Origin: Rhizobium sp. EC-SD404
Lineage (GTDB): Bacteria; Pseudomonadota; Alphaproteobacteria; Rhizobiales; Rhizobiaceae
Reading direction: 5' to 3'
DNA: 64,000 bases
NCBI RefSeq assembly: GCF_902498825.1
Contig: NZ_LR701459.1
Span: 2,527,890-2,591,889 of the forward strand
Below, one piece after another: positions 54,325-60,653 of this stretch (position 1 is its first letter; each line of letters opens with the position of its first letter). The notes beneath the pieces are model-generated. The model was not told the origin of the DNA, did no database searches, and was given only the letters and a program-made list of their open reading frames with translations. A program made the translations under genes and the position numbers.

Positions 54325-54699
54325 GGGACCGGCATTCGCGAGAGTTGAAAATTGTATGCAATCGCCATAGCGCGAAAGCGGCAAAATGCAAAACCCGTCT
54401 TTGGGACCCTGGGGACATCACTTCGCCCGTGCGTGGCCCGGACATCACCACCCGCATCACCAAAGGTTTCAGACGGAAAAATTTTGGGGTAGTTTGGAAC
54501 ACGAGGCGGACGCAGATGTTCCGCCGATGTCCGATGCGCGCGTCGAGCCGCCGGAATGATGAGGAAATCCGCGGCCAGCCAGCCGCTCGCCGGTAAGTCG
54601 TCCTGCCTTGCCCTATCGGATTTCGATCCGCTCTTTCGGTCGCCCACGGCGTTTGTCGGACGCCTTTGAACGAACCGAACGACAATGAGGAGATGGACG
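54325..54699. other. divergent region TSUP / ectD
   Basis: 375 bp without a supported gene, containing AT-rich patches (about 54341-54362 and 54471-54500) that could hold promoters. No operator or riboswitch recognised. Confidence 0.5.
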
Positions 54700-55626
54700 A
54701 TGGCAGAGATCCACGACCTGTACCCGACCCGAAAAGGCACGGAACCTGACGTCCGAGACCGTCAGGACCCGGTGATCTATTCCAAGTGGAGCAAGGACTC
54801 GCCGCTCAGCCGGGACGAATATCGATCCTACGAGGACAAAGGCTTCCTCTTCCTGCCGGGCCTTTTCAAGGCGAACGAACTGCAGATCCTTCTTGATGAG
54901 TCCACGCGGCTTCGCACCTCCAAGGATGCGCTCGAAGACGAGACCCTGATCGCCGAACCGAATTCCGGAGATGTCCGCTCGATCTTCGCCTTGCACCGGC
55001 AGAGCGCCATCATGCACCGGCTTGCCAGCGACGAGCGTCTTGCCGGCATCGCGCGCTTCCTGCTCGGCGACGAGATCTACATCCACCAGTCGCGGCTGAA
55101 CTTCAAACCCGGCTTCCGCGGCAAGGAATTCTACTGGCACTCCGATTTCGAGACCTGGCACGCCGAAGACGGCATGCCCCGCATGCGCGCGCTGTCCATG
55201 TCGTTGCTTCTCACCGACAACGAGCCGCACAATGGCCCGCTGATGCTGATGCCCGGCTCGCACAAGCGCTTCATCGGAACGGTCGGCAAAACGCCGAAGG
55301 ACAATTACAAATCCTCTCTCAAGGCCCAGGAGACCGGTACGCCCGACGATCGGAACCTGACGCGGCTTTACGATGAGTTGGGGCTGGAAACGCCAACGGG
55401 CCCAGCCGGTTCGCTGCTCATCTTCGACTGCAACACGATGCATGGCTCGGCGTCGAACATCTCGCCTATGGCGCGATCGAACGCCTTCTTCGTGTTCAAT
55501 GCCGTGTCGAACAAGCTCGTCGCCCCGTTCTCCGCAGGAACGCCGCGCCCGGAATTCGTGGGCGCACGCGACAATGTGGAGCCCGTAAAGGTGATCGAAC
55601 GAAACGCAAAACTACTCGCCGCCTGA
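54700..55626 (+). CDS. ectD: ectoine hydroxylase
   Basis: 308 aa Fe(II)/2-oxoglutarate dioxygenase that converts ectoine to 5-hydroxyectoine. The EctD signature 'FYWHSDFETWHAEDGMPRMRALS' contains iron ligands His147 and Asp149; the third ligand is His248 in 'TMHGSASN'. Numbering and spacing match studied EctD proteins closely. 'IHQSRLNFKPGFRGK' precedes it. ATG at 54700, 7 nt after AGGAG. No ectA, ectB or ectC is adjacent, so ectoine must be made elsewhere in the genome or taken up. Confidence 0.94.
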   Translation: MAEIHDLYPTRKGTEPDVRDRQDPVIYSKWSKDSPLSRDEYRSYEDKGFLFLPGLFKANELQILLDESTRLRTSKDALEDETLIAEPNSGDVRSIFALHRQSAIMHRLASDERLAGIARFLLGDEIYIHQSRLNFKPGFRGKEFYWHSDFETWHAEDGMPRMRALSMSLLLTDNEPHNGPLMLMPGSHKRFIGTVGKTPKDNYKSSLKAQETGTPDDRNLTRLYDELGLETPTGPAGSLLIFDCNTMHGSASNISPMARSNAFFVFNAVSNKLVAPFSAGTPRPEFVGARDNVEPVKVIERNAKLLAA

Positions 55627-55739: not shown

Positions 55740-55955
55740 ATGGACAAGAAAACCGGATCGTTCCGGGTGCGCGACGGCAAGGCCGCCGAGCGCCGCGTGG
55801 ACGAATACCACGACCTCATGGCGAGCGGCGCGCTCGGCATGAAGCACTACATTCTCGACGACGGCCGTAAGGTTACCCATGTCGAGGAAGGACGCTACGT
55901 CATCGATATCACCCGCGAGGAACTCATCCTCATCGACGAGCCCGAACCGGCCTGA
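55740..55955 (+). CDS. small hypothetical protein
   Basis: 71 aa: 'MDKKTGSFRVRDGKAAERRVDEYHDLM' then 'GMKHYILDDGRKVTHVEEGRYVID' and an acidic end. Charged, with no signal peptide or membrane segment; a helix followed by a small beta part is likely. I do not recognise the family. The ATG follows GGGAGGCATTGTCCC. Codon use matches the neighbours. Confidence 0.7.
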   Translation: MDKKTGSFRVRDGKAAERRVDEYHDLMASGALGMKHYILDDGRKVTHVEEGRYVIDITREELILIDEPEPA

Positions 55956-56067: not shown

Positions 56068-56096
56068 TGTCGGGTACCGCTTGTTCCGTTCGTCCT
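56068..56096 (+). promoter_or_regulatory. ECF-type promoter, site 1
   Basis: TGTCGGG-N15-TCGTCCT, 22 bp before the YCII start codon. The same motif with identical spacing occurs at 58714 and 59252. TGTCG-type -35 elements are described for ECF42 sigma factors; here the sigma gene lies in the operon that follows. Confidence 0.7.
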
Positions 56097-56118
56097 GTGA
56101 GCAAGCGAGGCCAAACCC

Positions 56119-56502
56119 ATGCTGTATGCGATCCTGTGTTATCACCATGAAGACATCGTCGGTGCCTGGAGCAAGGAAGAAGACGATGCCGTCATGGCGC
56201 GTCTCCTGAAGATAACCGGTAAGCTGCAGGACGAAGGCCGGCTTGGCCCCGTCGCCCGCCTCATGCCGACCAGCGCCGCCACCACGCTGCGCAAAGGCGC
56301 AGACGACCCGCTCGTCATCGACGGTCCCTTCGCCGAGACCAAAGAGCAGTTTCTGGGCTTCTACCTCGTCGATTGCGCCACGCTCGACGATGCGCTGGCG
56401 ATCGCGCGCGATCTTGCCGAAGCAAATCCCGGCGGCGGTTCCTACGAGATCCGGCCGGTCGGCTTTTATCAACCCGCAACACCGAAGGCCGAGACGAGAT
56501 GA
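56119..56502 (+). CDS. YCII/DGPF-family protein
   Basis: 127 aa. 'DDPLVIDGPFAETKEQFLGFYLVD' carries the DGPF motif; the fold is a ferredoxin-like YCII domain. These proteins are the standard genomic partner of ECF42-type sigma factors; their chemistry is unknown. The stop overlaps the sigma gene start (ATGA), so the two are translated together. Confidence 0.92.
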   Translation: MLYAILCYHHEDIVGAWSKEEDDAVMARLLKITGKLQDEGRLGPVARLMPTSAATTLRKGADDPLVIDGPFAETKEQFLGFYLVDCATLDDALAIARDLAEANPGGGSYEIRPVGFYQPATPKAETR

Positions 56503-57809
56503 GCGACCCCGCCTGGATCGAGACAGCACTGACCGCCGCCCGTCCGCAGGCGGTCGCAGCGCTTCTTCGCTATTTTCGCGATCTCGACCGGGCCGAAGAG
56601 GCTTTCCAGGAAGCCTGCCTCAGGGCGCTGAAATCCTGGCCGAAGAACGGACCGCCGCGTGATCCCGCCGCCTGGCTGATCTTCGTCGGTCGCAATGCCG
56701 GCGTCGATGGCGTGCGGCGCGACAGTCGCCTGCGGCCGCTCCCGGAAGAGGACCAGATCTCCGACCTGTCCGACGCCGAAACCGATATCGCCGAACGGTT
56801 GGACGAAAGCGCCTACCGCGACGACGTGCTGCGGCTTCTTTTCGTCTGCTGCCATCCCGATCTGCCGACGACGCAGCAGATCGCTCTCGCCTTGCGGATC
56901 GTTTCGGGGCTCACCGTGCTTCAGATCGCACGCGCCTTTCTCGTCTCCGAAGCGGCGATGGAACAGCGCATCACCAGGGCCAAATCCAAGGTTGCTCGTG
57001 CCGGCGTTCCCTTCGAGGCACCGGACCGTGAGGCGCGCGCCGAGCGACTGCTGACCGTCGGCGCCATGCTCTATCTCGTCTTCAACGAAGGCTATTCCGC
57101 CCGCGCAAGCGATGTCGCGAAAACCCGCGAGGCCGAACGGTCGGCCTCGGTGTTTGCGCAGGAGGCGATCCGCCTCGCCCGCCTGATGGTCAAGCTCTTC
57201 CCCGCCGAGCCGGAGATCGCGGGCCTGCTCGCGCTTATGCTTCTGCAGCATGCCCGCAGCCCTGCCCGCTTCGATGCCGCTGGCCAGATCGTGCTGCTCG
57301 AAGATCAGGACCGCACGCTCTGGAACGGCGCGATGATCGGCGAAGGCCTCGCGATGCTCGACAAGGCGCTGCGTCACGCGCGCCCCGGCCCCTACCAGCT
57401 CCAGGCCGCGATTGCCGCCACCCATGCCCGCGCGAAGACCGCCGGCGAGACTGACTGGGCGGCGATCGACCTGCTCTACCGCACGCTGGAAGTCGTGCAG
57501 CCATCCCCCGTCGTGACGCTCAACCGAGCGGTCGCGATCAACAAGCTCGCCGGCCCTGAGGCAGCGCTGGCGCTGATCGATCCGCTGGCCGATCGGCTCT
57601 CCGGCTACTTCTATTTCCACGGCTTGCGCGGCGGCCTTCTGAACGAGCTTGGCCGGCGCCCAGAGGCGATTGAGTCCTTCAACCGTGCCATCGCGCTCGC
57701 CAACAGCCCCGCCGAAGCGGCGCATATCCGGCGTCACCTCGACGGCTTAGGCAAAGCCCCCGAAACGGCGCCTGAAACAGCAGACCTGTCGCAAACGACG
57801 AATGTCTGA
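56499..57809 (+). CDS. ECF42-type RNA polymerase sigma factor
   Basis: 436 aa. N-terminal sigma-2 region ('VAALLRYFRDLDRAEEAFQEACLRALKSWP') and sigma-4 region ('TTQQIALALRIVSGLTVLQIARAFLVSEAAMEQRITRAK') are followed by a ~250-residue C-terminal helical extension ('LLTVGAMLYLVFNEGYSA', 'LLALMLLQHARSPAR', TPR-like 'NELGRRPEAIESFNRAIALA'). This extension is the mark of ECF42 and is needed for activity; no anti-sigma gene accompanies such factors. ATG overlaps the YCII stop. It probably drives sites 1-3 described here. Confidence 0.92.
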   Translation: MSDPAWIETALTAARPQAVAALLRYFRDLDRAEEAFQEACLRALKSWPKNGPPRDPAAWLIFVGRNAGVDGVRRDSRLRPLPEEDQISDLSDAETDIAERLDESAYRDDVLRLLFVCCHPDLPTTQQIALALRIVSGLTVLQIARAFLVSEAAMEQRITRAKSKVARAGVPFEAPDREARAERLLTVGAMLYLVFNEGYSARASDVAKTREAERSASVFAQEAIRLARLMVKLFPAEPEIAGLLALMLLQHARSPARFDAAGQIVLLEDQDRTLWNGAMIGEGLAMLDKALRHARPGPYQLQAAIAATHARAKTAGETDWAAIDLLYRTLEVVQPSPVVTLNRAVAINKLAGPEAALALIDPLADRLSGYFYFHGLRGGLLNELGRRPEAIESFNRAIALANSPAEAAHIRRHLDGLGKAPETAPETADLSQTTNV

Positions 57810-57870
57810 TATAAGGACTTCAGAGAACGCAGACTGCGTTCATTGTGTTCAGACATAGTCAGGAAAACGA

Positions 57871-58116
57871 TTGGCCCAGCCCTTCAAAACGCCGTCCACG
57901 GAAAAGCGCTCCTCCTCCGAAGCCAAGTGGTCATCGACCAACAATGAAGCCCGCACCATCATGGAGAAGGAAGCTGTTGCCCGTGAGCGCAAGACAGAGC
58001 GGCTGAAGGCACAGCGCCTGGCGATGGAAGCCGAAACTCCCGAGGTCGAAGTCGCCAAGGCGACCGTCCGTAAACCGCGTGCGAAAGCCGCTAAAAAGGG
58101 CGTCGGCAGCAGATAA
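57871..58116 (+). CDS. small charged helical protein
   Basis: 81 aa, 'MAQPFKTPSTEKRSSSEAKWSSTNNEARTIMEKEAVARERKTERLKAQRLAMEAE' then a Lys/Arg/Ala-rich tail. It is hydrophilic, helical and basic at the end, without membrane segments. TTG start with AGGA 6 nt upstream. It looks like a conserved small rhizobial protein of unknown role. The antisense frame 57849-58166 is judged non-coding. Confidence 0.75.
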   Translation: MAQPFKTPSTEKRSSSEAKWSSTNNEARTIMEKEAVARERKTERLKAQRLAMEAETPEVEVAKATVRKPRAKAAKKGVGSR

Positions 58117-58304
58117 ATCGGCCGCGCCCGGCCTTCAGCATTGACATTTCGTCGGCAAGGGCGCACCTATGTCAAATCGATCTGAGTAACCGAACTTGTT
58201 TAGGCGCCACGGCGCATGCGACGACTTTCCCTTACCTATCGATCCACCGCCCTTTGACTTCTGGTCGATTGGCAAATTCTCTATGCGATTGAAAGGTAAT
58301 CGTC

Positions 58305-58514
58305 ATGGCTACTGGTACTGTAAAATGGTTCAACGCCACCAAGGGTTACGGCTTTATTGAGCCGAACGATGGCAGCGCAGACGTATTCGTCCACGTTTCG
58401 GCCGTTGAGCGCGCCGGCATGTCGTCCATCGCCGAAGGCCAGAAAGTGCACTTCGACGTTGTTCGCGACAGCAAGAGCGGCAAGATGAGTGCAGGCAACC
58501 TCGCCGCCGCTTAA
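58305..58514 (+). CDS. cold-shock protein
   Basis: 69 aa CspA-type OB-fold. '[20 protein letters not shown]' (RNP1) and '[14 protein letters not shown]' (RNP2) bind single-stranded nucleic acid. A 188-bp upstream gap would allow the long 5' UTR usual for csp genes. ATG after GAAAGGTAATCGTC. Confidence 0.96.
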
Positions 58515-58525
58515 TCAAGCTCTTC

Positions 58526-58558
58526 TAGAGCGTTTCCAGCGAAAGCTGGTTTGCTCTG
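58526..58558 (+). repeat. RIME-like fragment or hairpin, copy E
   Basis: AGAGCGTTTCCAGC-GAAA-GCTGGTTTGCTCT: it shares the first 12 bp (AGAGCGTTTCCA) and the GCTCT end with copy A but has a short CCAGC/GCTGG stem in the middle. Located 12 bp after the cold-shock gene. Confidence 0.5.
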
Positions 58559-58582
58559 AAAAGTTTGTCATCGCCTTCCCTG

Positions 58583-58601
58583 TGACCACGGATGTACTGG
58601 C
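58583..58601 (+). repeat. 19-bp exact repeat, copy 2
   Basis: Identical to the minus-strand sequence at 42393-42411. Followed 22 bp later by a terminator. Confidence 0.7.
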
Positions 58602-58623
58602 TCAGGATGCGGCAATGGCAATG

Positions 58624-58650
58624 AAAGGCCGGTTCATACCGGCCTTTTTT
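58624..58650 (+). terminator. rho-independent terminator
   Basis: AAAGGCCGGT / ACCGGCCTTT with a 4-nt loop and T6. It ends the cold-shock transcript or a short RNA starting after the gene. Confidence 0.85.
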
Positions 58651-58713
58651 GCGTTCTAGGGCCACCGAAACGCAGCTGCGCCAAGCAAAGACTCCAGATT
58701 TTTTGCGTCCCCC

Positions 58714-58742
58714 TGTCGGGACGTGGCATTCTCCATCGTCCT
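58714..58742 (+). promoter_or_regulatory. ECF-type promoter, site 2
   Basis: TGTCGGG-N15-TCGTCCT, 33 bp before the AHSA1 start codon. Same motif and spacing as sites 1 and 3. Confidence 0.7.
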
Positions 58743-58775
58743 TTGATCGAAATGGACACGGATTGGAGATGCCAG

Positions 58776-59234
58776 ATGGCACAGACACACGAACTTACCC
58801 TCACCCGCCTGATCGACGTCCCGCGCGAGAAGCTTTATCGCTGCTGGACAGAGGCCGACCTCCTGAAGCAGTGGTTCGTGCCGGCCCCCTGGACGATCGC
58901 ATCGGCCGAAATCGACGTGCGCCCGGGCGGCATCAGCCACGTCGTCATGGCCGACCCCGACGGCAATCAGTATCCGAACCGCGGCGTCTATCTCGAAGTC
59001 GTCCCGAACGAGAAGATCGTCTTCACCGACGCTTATGTCGACGCGTGGACGCCCTCGGAAAAGCCCTTCTTCACGGGCATCATCACCTTCGCAGATGAAG
59101 CCGGCGGCACGCGTTACACCGCGGTCGGGCGCCATTGGACCGAGGCCGACATGAAGTCCCACGAAGAGATGGGCTTCCACGACGGCTGGGGGAAAGCCGC
59201 CGACCAGATGGCCGCGCTCGCCGCCACGCTCTGA
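58776..59234 (+). CDS. SRPBCC/AHSA1-family protein
   Basis: 152 aa. 'LTLTRLIDVPREKLYRCWTEADLLKQWFVPAPW' at the start and 'FHDGWGKAADQMAALAA' at the end are typical of Aha1-C-like START-fold proteins, which hold a hydrophobic pocket. The ligand is unknown. ATG at 58776 after GGAG. Directly controlled by ECF-type site 2. Confidence 0.92.
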   Translation: MAQTHELTLTRLIDVPREKLYRCWTEADLLKQWFVPAPWTIASAEIDVRPGGISHVVMADPDGNQYPNRGVYLEVVPNEKIVFTDAYVDAWTPSEKPFFTGIITFADEAGGTRYTAVGRHWTEADMKSHEEMGFHDGWGKAADQMAALAATL

Positions 59235-59251
59235 AAATAATTCGGCCGGAC

Positions 59252-59280
59252 TGTCGGGTGAAGGCCGCCCCGATCGTCCT
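59252..59280 (+). promoter_or_regulatory. ECF-type promoter, site 3
   Basis: TGTCGGG-N15-TCGTCCT, 35 bp before the DUF1428 start codon and 17 bp after the AHSA1 stop codon. Confidence 0.7.
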
Positions 59281-59315
59281 TCGTTTATCGCAAGACACCA
59301 AAGAGGAGTATCGCA

Positions 59316-59669
59316 ATGCCTTACGTCGATGGATTTCTGCTCGCAGTCCCCAAGGACAAGCTCGAGGACTACAAGGCGATCGCCGCAAACGCCGGCCGCA
59401 TCTGGATGGAGCACGGCGCCCTGTCCTACGTCGAATGCAAGGCCGACGACGTGCCCTATGGCGAGCTCACGTCCTTCCCACGCGCGGTGCAGGCAAAGGA
59501 CGACGAAACCGTCATCTTCGCCTGGATCACCTATCCCTCCCGCGAGAAGCGCGACGAGATCAACAAGAAGGTCTTCGAGGACGAGCGCCTGCAGATGGAC
59601 ATGGCAAAGATGCCCTTCGACACCAAACGCATGATCTTCGGCGGCTTTGAAAGCTTCGTCGAATTCTGA
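59316..59669 (+). CDS. DUF1428 protein
   Basis: 117 aa. 'YVDGFLLAVPKDKLEDYKAIA', 'ALSYVECKADDVPYGELTSFPRA' and 'RMIFGGFESFVEF' are the family marks; a dimeric alpha-beta barrel is expected. Function unknown; often found with VOC and AHSA1 genes. Strong ribosome-binding site GAGGAG. First gene after ECF-type site 3, with the two VOC genes behind it. Confidence 0.93.
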   Translation: MPYVDGFLLAVPKDKLEDYKAIAANAGRIWMEHGALSYVECKADDVPYGELTSFPRAVQAKDDETVIFAWITYPSREKRDEINKKVFEDERLQMDMAKMPFDTKRMIFGGFESFVEF

Positions 59670-59712
59670 CCGGCCCAGTTTAAGCATTGGTTGAACCCGG
59701 AGGAACATCCCC

Positions 59713-60135
59713 ATGTCTGAACAGACCAATCCGCAGGAATGGACCGCGTCCATCCCCGGCGTCATTCCCTATCTCGCCTCCAAGGATGCGAGCGCGGCCA
59801 TCGATTTCTACAAGAAGGCCTTCGCCGCAACCGAGGACAGCCGCATGCTGATGGATGACGGCAAGCGGATCATGCACTGCCAGCTCACCATCAACGACGG
59901 CAAGTTCATGCTGGGCGATGCCATGCCCGAATACGGCTATCCCTGGGTCGAGCCGCAGGGCACGACGCTGACGCTCGCCGTCATGAATGCACGCGAATGG
60001 TGGGACCGCGCCACGGCGGCCGGCTGCACCGTCGTCATGCCCTTCGAGGTCGCCTTCTGGGGCGATCTCTACGGCCAGTTGAAGGATCCCTTCGGCCACA
60101 TGTGGGCCATCGTCGGCCCGCCGGACGGCCGTTGA
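59713..60135 (+). CDS. VOC/PhnB-like protein
   Basis: 140 aa, glyoxalase/bleomycin-resistance fold in the PhnB-like group: 'VIPYLASKDASAAIDFYKKAFAA', 'IMHCQLTINDGKFMLGD', 'GDLYGQLKDPFGHMWAI'. Possible metal ligands His and Glu are present. Ligand unknown. 43 bp after DUF1428, probably in the same operon. Confidence 0.92.
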   Translation: MSEQTNPQEWTASIPGVIPYLASKDASAAIDFYKKAFAATEDSRMLMDDGKRIMHCQLTINDGKFMLGDAMPEYGYPWVEPQGTTLTLAVMNAREWWDRATAAGCTVVMPFEVAFWGDLYGQLKDPFGHMWAIVGPPDGR

Positions 60136-60209
60136 GCCTGCCAAAACACAAGCCGGCGAGACGGCCAGCGACAAAATCAGCGACACGATCAGCGACGGAG
60201 GCGCTCACC

Positions 60210-60653
60210 ATGCCCACCATCACACCCTGCCTCTGGTTCGATGACCAGCTGGAAGAAGCGATCGAGTTCTACAGCGGCATCTTCCCCGATGCCGCCATCC
60301 TCGAAGCGACCCGCCATGCCGACGGCAAGCTCTTCGTCGCAACCTTCCGCCTCGCCGGCCGCGACTTCATGGGTCTCAATGGCGGGCCCATGTTTCCCTT
60401 CACCGAGGCGATCTCGCTCTCCGTCGCCTGCCTCGACCAGGCGGAGATCGACCGGTACTGGAATGCGCTCGGTGAAGGCGGCACCATCCAGCAATGCGGC
60501 TGGCTGAAGGACCGATACGGCCTCTCCTGGCAGATCGTGCCCGCCATCCTGCCCAAACTGATGAACGATCCAGACCGCGCAAAAGCCGCCCGCGTCCAAG
60601 CCGCCCTCATGGGCATGGTCAAGCTCGACATCGCCGCCCTGGAAAACGCCTGA
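60210..60653 (+). CDS. VOC/PhnB-like protein (3-dmu-9_3-mt type)
   Basis: 147 aa. 'TITPCLWFDDQLEEAIEFYSGIF', 'RDFMGLNGGPMFPFTEAISLSVACLDQAEIDRYWNAL' and 'QCGWLKDRYGLSWQIVP' match the group often named 3-demethylubiquinone-9 3-methyltransferase, a label without proven function. ATG at 60210 with GGAGG 9 nt upstream. Last gene of the cassette. Confidence 0.92.
   Translation: MPTITPCLWFDDQLEEAIEFYSGIFPDAAILEATRHADGKLFVATFRLAGRDFMGLNGGPMFPFTEAISLSVACLDQAEIDRYWNALGEGGTIQQCGWLKDRYGLSWQIVPAILPKLMNDPDRAKAARVQAALMGMVKLDIAALENA

Follow-up and report, generated by a model that had tools for sequence, protein, structure and literature searches.

ECF42 sigma factors and the locus studied

The closest described counterpart of the locus analyzed here is RpoE10 (SMc01150) of Sinorhizobium meliloti, a sigma factor of the extracytoplasmic function (ECF) group ECF42 that is encoded downstream of the YCII gene SMc01151 (PMC6180224). 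Overexpression of RpoE10 raised six genes, four of them at least 2-fold: the pair SMc01149-SMc01148, whose products are a hydrophobic-ligand-binding domain protein and one that is glyoxalase-like, and the pair SMb20475-SMb20474, coding for a glyoxalase-like protein and a product with no predicted function. Overexpression and mapped start sites tied such targets and their promoter core to RpoE10; the core reads TGTCGGC-N15-TCGTCCT at SMc01149, TGTCGG-N17-CGTC at SMb20475 and TGTCGGC-N15-TCGTC at SMc01151. SMc01151 itself was not raised by RpoE10, and according to the authors its motif overlaps the start site (PMC6180224). Control via protein interaction through the C-terminal TPR extension has been proposed, with possible involvement of the YCII protein (PMC8999054), and activity may be suppressed when a ligand or protein binds the TPR domain (PMC9023288). 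Antibiotic and oxidative-stress phenotypes have been attributed to ECF-10 of Pseudomonas putida (PMC8999054, PMC6180224). Here we describe a predicted regulon of this type in a 64,000-nucleotide stretch of Rhizobium sp. EC-SD404 (contig NZ_LR701459.1), referred to as the window, which carries a YCII-ECF42 sigma operon followed by a cassette of AHSA1, DUF1428 and VOC genes.

Three copies of the motif TGTCGGG-N15-TCGTCCT in the window are very probably promoters of the ECF42-type sigma factor encoded at 56499-57809, with its own operon, AHSA1, DUF1428-VOC-VOC and a distant DrrA/DrrB-type exporter as predicted targets. The analysis shows the sequence, the gene families, their conservation and the association of the motif with the sigma factor; the sigma dependence of the targets in this organism, their start sites, the signal and the function are inferred. 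The features of the locus are as follows:

56068..56096, + strand: predicted ECF42-type promoter of the YCII-sigma operon (TGTCGG at -35, CGTC at -10)
56119..56502, + strand: YCII-domain protein, 127 amino acids (aa) (Pfam PF03795, 6.1e-20; DGPF motif read in the translation)
56499..57809, + strand: ECF42-type sigma factor, 436 aa (sigma regions 2 and 4, DUF6596, TPR-like C-terminal extension)
58714..58742, + strand: predicted ECF42-type promoter of AHSA1 (exact motif; half-sites and most of the spacer kept in sibling genomes)
58776..59234, + strand: AHSA1 protein, 152 aa (Pfam PF08327, 1e-32)
59252..59280, + strand: predicted ECF42-type promoter of DUF1428-VOC-VOC (half-sites kept, spacer diverged in sibling genomes)
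59316..59669, + strand: DUF1428 protein, 117 aa (Pfam PF07237, 1.4e-43)
59713..60135, + strand: VOC/glyoxalase-fold protein, YjdN-like, 140 aa (Pfam PF00903, 1.8e-12; under the NCBIfam YjdN cut-off)
60210..60653, + strand: 3-dmu-9_3-mt family protein, 147 aa (Pfam PF06983, 1.4e-39)

The Pfam families confirm the gene identities of the original prediction, which had been read from the sequence alone as YCII, sigma, AHSA1, DUF1428, VOC and VOC. We take AHSA1 to have a START/SRPBCC-like fold and the 3-dmu-9_3-mt family to belong to the VOC superfamily.

Predicted promoter motif in the window and in the genome

A scan of the window located the exact motif at 56068-56096, 58714-58742 and 59252-59280, always on the + strand. 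The copies end 22 bases ahead of the YCII start codon (ATG at 56119), 33 ahead of that of AHSA1 (58776) and 35 ahead of that of DUF1428 (59316), as originally described. Only about 0.0005 exact 14-base matches would be expected on both strands of 64 kb with uniform bases, so the claim of a repeat beyond chance holds. When up to three mismatches were allowed, ten matches were obtained against 8.31 expected from shuffles; the remaining seven each have exactly three mismatches, which is chance level, and none with two or fewer exists in the window besides the three exact copies, in agreement with the earlier statement that no other copy was noticed. The sigma-70 consensus scan of the region returned no match.

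Two further genomes of the window's genus (G001 and G002, the siblings) delimit the constrained bases, although they are near-identical to each other at this locus and amount to roughly one comparison. Their AHSA1 copy reads TGTCGGG-N15-GCGTCCT and their DUF1428 copy TGTCGGC-N15-ACGTCCT, so both differ from the window motif at the leading T of the -10 half, and the latter differs also at position 7 of the -35 half. These varying bases reduce the core to TGTCGG-N17-CGTCCT, and TCGTCCT was dropped as a fixed -10 half. The core of the YCII-sigma operon is present in both sibling genomes. Between the window genome and the siblings, the DUF1428 spacer has largely diverged with its half-sites retained; at AHSA1, YCII and drrA most of the spacer is preserved.

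The genome scan that had been suggested as a check revealed no further exact copy in the rest of the genome (4,201,592 bases scanned), and its sole one-mismatch copy (TGTCGGC) lies at C18:1491716 (C, G and L numbers denote contigs, genomes and loci). At two or fewer mismatches, 45 matches were counted genome-wide against 30 for a reversed control, so that two-mismatch matches are mostly noise. Since the scan tolerated two mismatches, its list holds every site of the core TGTCGG-N17-CGTCCT in this genome, and there are five:

56068, window: YCII-sigma operon
58714, window: AHSA1
59252, window: DUF1428-VOC-VOC
C18:1491716: DrrA/DrrB-type exporter
C18:3136990: lone VOC gene

The last two would extend the regulon beyond the window, less surely for the VOC gene. 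The latter (L266 1501-1944; Pfam Glyoxalase and Ble-like_N) finds its best sibling match at 29% identity in G001 and none in G002, and the fifth site is weak because its gene lacks a good match in either sibling. Shorter forms of the core also exceed their reversed controls on both strands of the genome, with 7 matches versus 1 for TGTCGG-N16-TCGTC and 19 versus 4 for TGTCGG-N17-CGTC. Three other matches to TGTCGG-N16-TCGTC (C17:39569, C18:2260115 and C18:2998614) were set aside as lying inside open reading frames (ORFs) of at least 132 aa; the first of them also has an overlapping 345-aa ATG ORF starting 116 nt downstream. ORF overlap is a weak test of a match, since 16 of the 19 matches to TGTCGG-N17-CGTC, the three window sites included, overlap some ORF of at least 60 aa.

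Core and sigma factor across related genomes

We analyzed the best 80 of 548 confirmed relatives of the sigma factor with their encoding loci, a sample dominated by close rhizobial relatives; in 78 of them, a script identified a YCII ORF immediately ahead of the sigma gene. The 150 nt preceding YCII contain TGTCGG-N17-CGTC at 74 of these 78 loci, and in 66 of the 74 the CGTC ends 21-25 nt ahead of the chosen ATG. Spacings of 16 or 18 were seen in none of the 78 loci, and 500 permuted motifs hit at most one. The 74 YCII promoters identified among L032-L111 also share conserved bases in the 3' half of their spacer, with TACTCCTT as the commonest bases before CGTC; this conservation is absent from the window's genus. 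Over all 80 loci, TGTCGG-N16-YCGTC gave 99 matches, of which 57 precede YCII, 13 AHSA1, 11 VOC, 3 sigma and one 3-dmu genes, and 14 are unlabelled. The reversed pattern gave one match and ten shuffled patterns 0-7, none ahead of those families.

The strict motif TGTCGG-N16-TCGTCCT was then counted in a set of 297 family genomes, which come from a larger group and were sorted by a search with the sigma factor; here, as in all genome comparisons below, related genomes are not independent events. Its 348 copies are spread over 136 genomes; the reversed pattern gave 44. Close orthologues of the sigma factor (best E <= 1e-160 and identity of at least 63%, plus a 70% fragment in G098) define 112 genomes, 97 of which carry the motif (301 copies, 2.69 per genome; control 19). 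It is found in 10 of the 53 genomes with distant relatives only (E <= 1e-60; 12 copies, control 9) and in 29 of the 132 genomes without a relative at E <= 1e-60 (35 copies, control 16), i.e. in 39 of 185 genomes lacking a close orthologue (47 copies, 0.25 per genome). The difference between close-sigma genomes and the rest is large (Fisher 7e-30, uncorrected for kinship). In a scan of 20 relatives, the matches in G004 and G012 were rejected as falling inside ORFs, and a third match in G002 is located at C3:512474. A genome of another family of the order (L120, G015:C4:463959) carries the strict motif 41 nt ahead of a DGPF-bearing ORF that looks YCII-like by eye.

The central claim of the original prediction, namely that the ECF42 operon and the stress cassette are tied by their promoters, is thus supported by the S. 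meliloti RpoE10 regulon, the 74 of 78 YCII loci, the association over 297 genomes and the sibling half-sites. The comparison with related genomes that it called for likewise finds the promoter sites kept in the siblings and the AHSA1, VOC and DUF1428 families recurring behind the core.

The sigma factor and its possible control

Pfam detects Sigma70_r2 at residues 15-77 and Sigma70_r4_2 at residues 115-164, both above cut-off, followed by DUF6596 at residues 183-290; TPR_1 at residues 375-400 (E 0.0011) is under its cut-off. The AlphaFold model (mean pLDDT 74.1, pTM 0.59) has a C-terminal helical array with a block pLDDT above 90 over residues 301-400, and residues ~81-180 are poorly modelled. 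Its fold matches are mostly TPR-type at the top, with low TM and a single match at E <= 0.001; the leading ones we take to be TPR proteins. The YCII gene (56119-56502) overlaps the sigma start at 56499. Assignment to ECF42 is based on regions 2 and 4, a C-terminal TPR-type extension of ~200 residues, the YCII/DGPF partner and the TGTCG-type -35 and CGTC -10 elements. The genome contains one match to this sigma factor at E <= 1e-60.

Pfam recognised no anti-sigma family among the ten scanned proteins, and two small neighbouring ORFs without a family, judged by eye, lack a long hydrophobic stretch. The proposed absence of an anti-sigma factor would fit the neighbouring genes, but a strain table in PMC6180224 names the rpoE10 partner gene ecfR10. 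Given this label in S. meliloti, the YCII protein itself may act as a regulator. The two small ORFs (55740-55955 and 57871-58116; 71 and 81 aa) flank the sigma operon, have no Pfam or NCBIfam match, and have related sequence at the corresponding positions of sibling G002.

A DrrA/DrrB-type exporter as a probable further target

The fourth core site, 1.09 Mb from the locus, precedes a DrrA-type ATPase gene by 35 bases, with an ABC-2 permease gene next (G000:C18:1491716-1493596; L031 5717-7597). The ATPase scores 353.6 bits with TIGR01188 (cut-off 312.45); the permease is above the Pfam cut-off for ABC2_membrane and below the NCBIfam cut-offs of the DrrB/DrrC families. All three genomes of the window's genus retain this site.

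Searching the 297 genomes at E <= 1e-100 yielded 40 drrA-type orthologues, each scanned over 300 bases upstream and 30 bases into the match. TGTCGG-N17-CGTC is present at 13 of them, and among 499 permuted motifs 493 hit none of the 40 and six hit one. Beyond the window's genus the spacers of these sites differ. Twelve of the 13 motif-bearing genes belong to genomes with a close ECF42 orthologue (12/29 versus 1/11, Fisher 0.068), an excess that is suggestive only; they span four genera (g1, g8, g48 and g98). Speaking against the exporter link, 27 of the 40 orthologues lack the core, and other members of the same genera, e.g. G144, G208 and G298, have no motif at drrA. In 11 of the 29 genomes with both genes (e.g. 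G121, G009, G191 and G298), drrA and the sigma gene share a contig and are no more than 40 kb apart; the motif is found in 9 of these 11 versus 3 of the 18 others (Fisher 0.0013). Twelve of the 18 have the two genes on separate contigs and so count among the others whatever their distance. The three motif-bearing genomes among the 18 all come from the window's genus.

The exporter is likely a further ECF42 target that this comparison adds to the regulon. In the literature searched we found no report of a link between ECF42 and an exporter, and the term 'ABC transporter' occurs 0 times in the main text of PMC6180224.

Gene families behind the core

A tally of 88 core sites was compiled from 30 assigned loci and hand-picked regions, mostly of many-copy genomes; the sample is uneven and has no control set. 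Fifteen of the 88 sites have no ATG ORF of at least 70 aa within 150 nt. Pfam was run on 93 of 94 ORFs (L150:1595-2941 was omitted), several of which are alternative frames. AHSA1 was the most frequent family (14), followed by 3-dmu, YCII and Glyoxalase (7 each), Abhydrolase_1, i.e. alpha/beta-hydrolase, and RibD_C (6 each), DUF1428 (5), GST_N (4) and DoxX_2 (2). DUF899, MFS, PAPS reductase, ABC ATPase, SnoaL_3, DUF6958, HAD and a phosphomannomutase family occurred once each (families named here are from 25 of the 32 matched). The AHSA1, VOC-type and DUF1428 families of the window cassette thus recur behind the core, and this family-wide list, drawn from sequence matches, is an addition of the present comparison.

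Proposed mechanism and alternative explanations

In the proposed mechanism, RNA polymerase with the ECF42 sigma factor would bind a -35 element TGTCGG and a -10 element CGTC separated by 17 bases, and so drive the YCII-sigma operon, AHSA1 and DUF1428-VOC-VOC; through the same core it would also drive the DrrA/DrrB-type ABC exporter and, less surely, the lone VOC gene. With no anti-sigma family recognised among the adjacent genes, the TPR-like C-terminal extension probably governs how active the sigma factor is, perhaps via the co-encoded YCII protein. The gene products would handle and export a toxic small molecule; since they are small ligand-binding or modifying proteins and an exporter, a response to toxic small molecules is the likeliest role. 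More broadly, we lean slightly towards a view of ECF42 in Rhizobiaceae-type bacteria as commanding a dispersed chemical-defence regulon, in which one core couples AHSA1, VOC, YCII, DUF1428, RibD_C, GST and alpha/beta-hydrolase proteins to DrrA/DrrB-type efflux, a one-component TPR sigma factor induces binding or modification of a toxic compound together with its export, and the exporter is a direct target in at least four genera.

Several observations weigh against the ECF42 promoter assignment. Fifteen of the 112 close-sigma genomes lack the strict motif, at least one of which (G009) has a relaxed form before drrA. Conversely, the 39 of 185 genomes that carry it without a close sigma (47 copies versus 25 for the reversed control) mean that the strict motif is no proof of ECF42 control. 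The sibling data count as about one comparison, and an in-frame ATG at 58752 offers an alternative start for AHSA1. Autoregulation is not assured either: the original prediction had ECF42 factors acting on the promoter of their own YCII gene, but the YCII gene of S. meliloti was not raised, and the two organisms may differ.

The sites could instead be read by another ECF sigma factor, for instance one of ECF41 type (TGTCAC/CGTC), with the ECF42 operon as one of its targets. ECF41 promoters are indeed similar, that of S. meliloti RpoE9 holding TGTCACA and CGTC (PMC6180224, Table 1). However, the last two bases of its -35 element are AC where the window has GG, the motif copies follow close ECF42 orthologues across the 297 genomes, and RpoE10 induced genes with this very core in S. 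meliloti (PMC6180224), which makes control by another factor very unlikely on these comparisons. It is extremely unlikely that a duplicated sequence or a repressor-binding site, and no promoter, underlies the 29-base pattern: two 7-base halves at fixed spacing would suit an operator, and the partly conserved spacer of the 74 YCII promoters and the mostly kept AHSA1, YCII and drrA spacers of the siblings would fit as well, but neither half is the inverted repeat of the other, the spacers differ from one window copy to another and have diverged at DUF1428, and the spacing equals that of the S. meliloti RpoE10 target promoters (PMC6180224). We give a minimal probability to the idea that only the YCII-sigma promoter functions and the cassette copies are chance matches or relics, in view of three exact copies where ~0.0005 were expected, the AHSA1 and DUF1428 half-sites kept in siblings, and the AHSA1, VOC and DUF1428 genes elsewhere that also carry the core.

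Other features near the locus

Between the cold-shock gene and AHSA1, a GC-rich palindrome followed by T6 (58627-58650) was read by eye as a terminator; it is identical in the siblings and is not among the results of the program scan of the region. Further upstream, 54685-55626 encodes the ectoine hydroxylase EctD (TIGR02408, 372.1 bits; cut-off 336.5), which hints at a salt-tolerant host.

Comparison with known systems

ECF42 sigma factors are widespread, and a family-wide core with recurrent kinds of target makes their purpose testable; one can ask what compound turns on a DrrA/DrrB-type pump along with AHSA1, VOC and DUF1428 genes. The C-terminal TPR extension and the conserved YCII partner are shared with Sven_0747, Sven_4377 and Sven_7131 of Streptomyces venezuelae and with ECF-10 of P. 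putida (PMC8999054). ECF41 factors resemble the window sigma in having a C-terminal regulatory extension and similar -35 and -10 elements; their extension is SnoaL-like (PMC8999054), whereas that of the window sigma is TPR-like, and the RpoE9 promoter has TGTCAC at -35 (PMC6180224), whereas the window element ends in GG.

The closest resemblance is to S. meliloti RpoE10, where the YCII gene also lies directly upstream of the sigma gene, a hydrophobic-ligand-binding/glyoxalase-like pair adjoins it by locus numbers, TGTCGG-N17-CGTC is present at all three promoters and the targets are few (PMC6180224). In contrast to RpoE10, the window cassette is located ~1 kb further on, beyond a small ORF and a cold-shock gene, and has two promoters and DUF1428. 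The window YCII promoter lies 22 bases ahead of its ATG, whereas the S. meliloti motif overlaps the start site, and, judged by the term 'ABC transporter' in the main text of PMC6180224, no exporter is reported for the RpoE10 regulon. With the S. meliloti regulon and the same core already published, the window is not new in kind; it is a further instance of an RpoE10-type regulon, in another genus.

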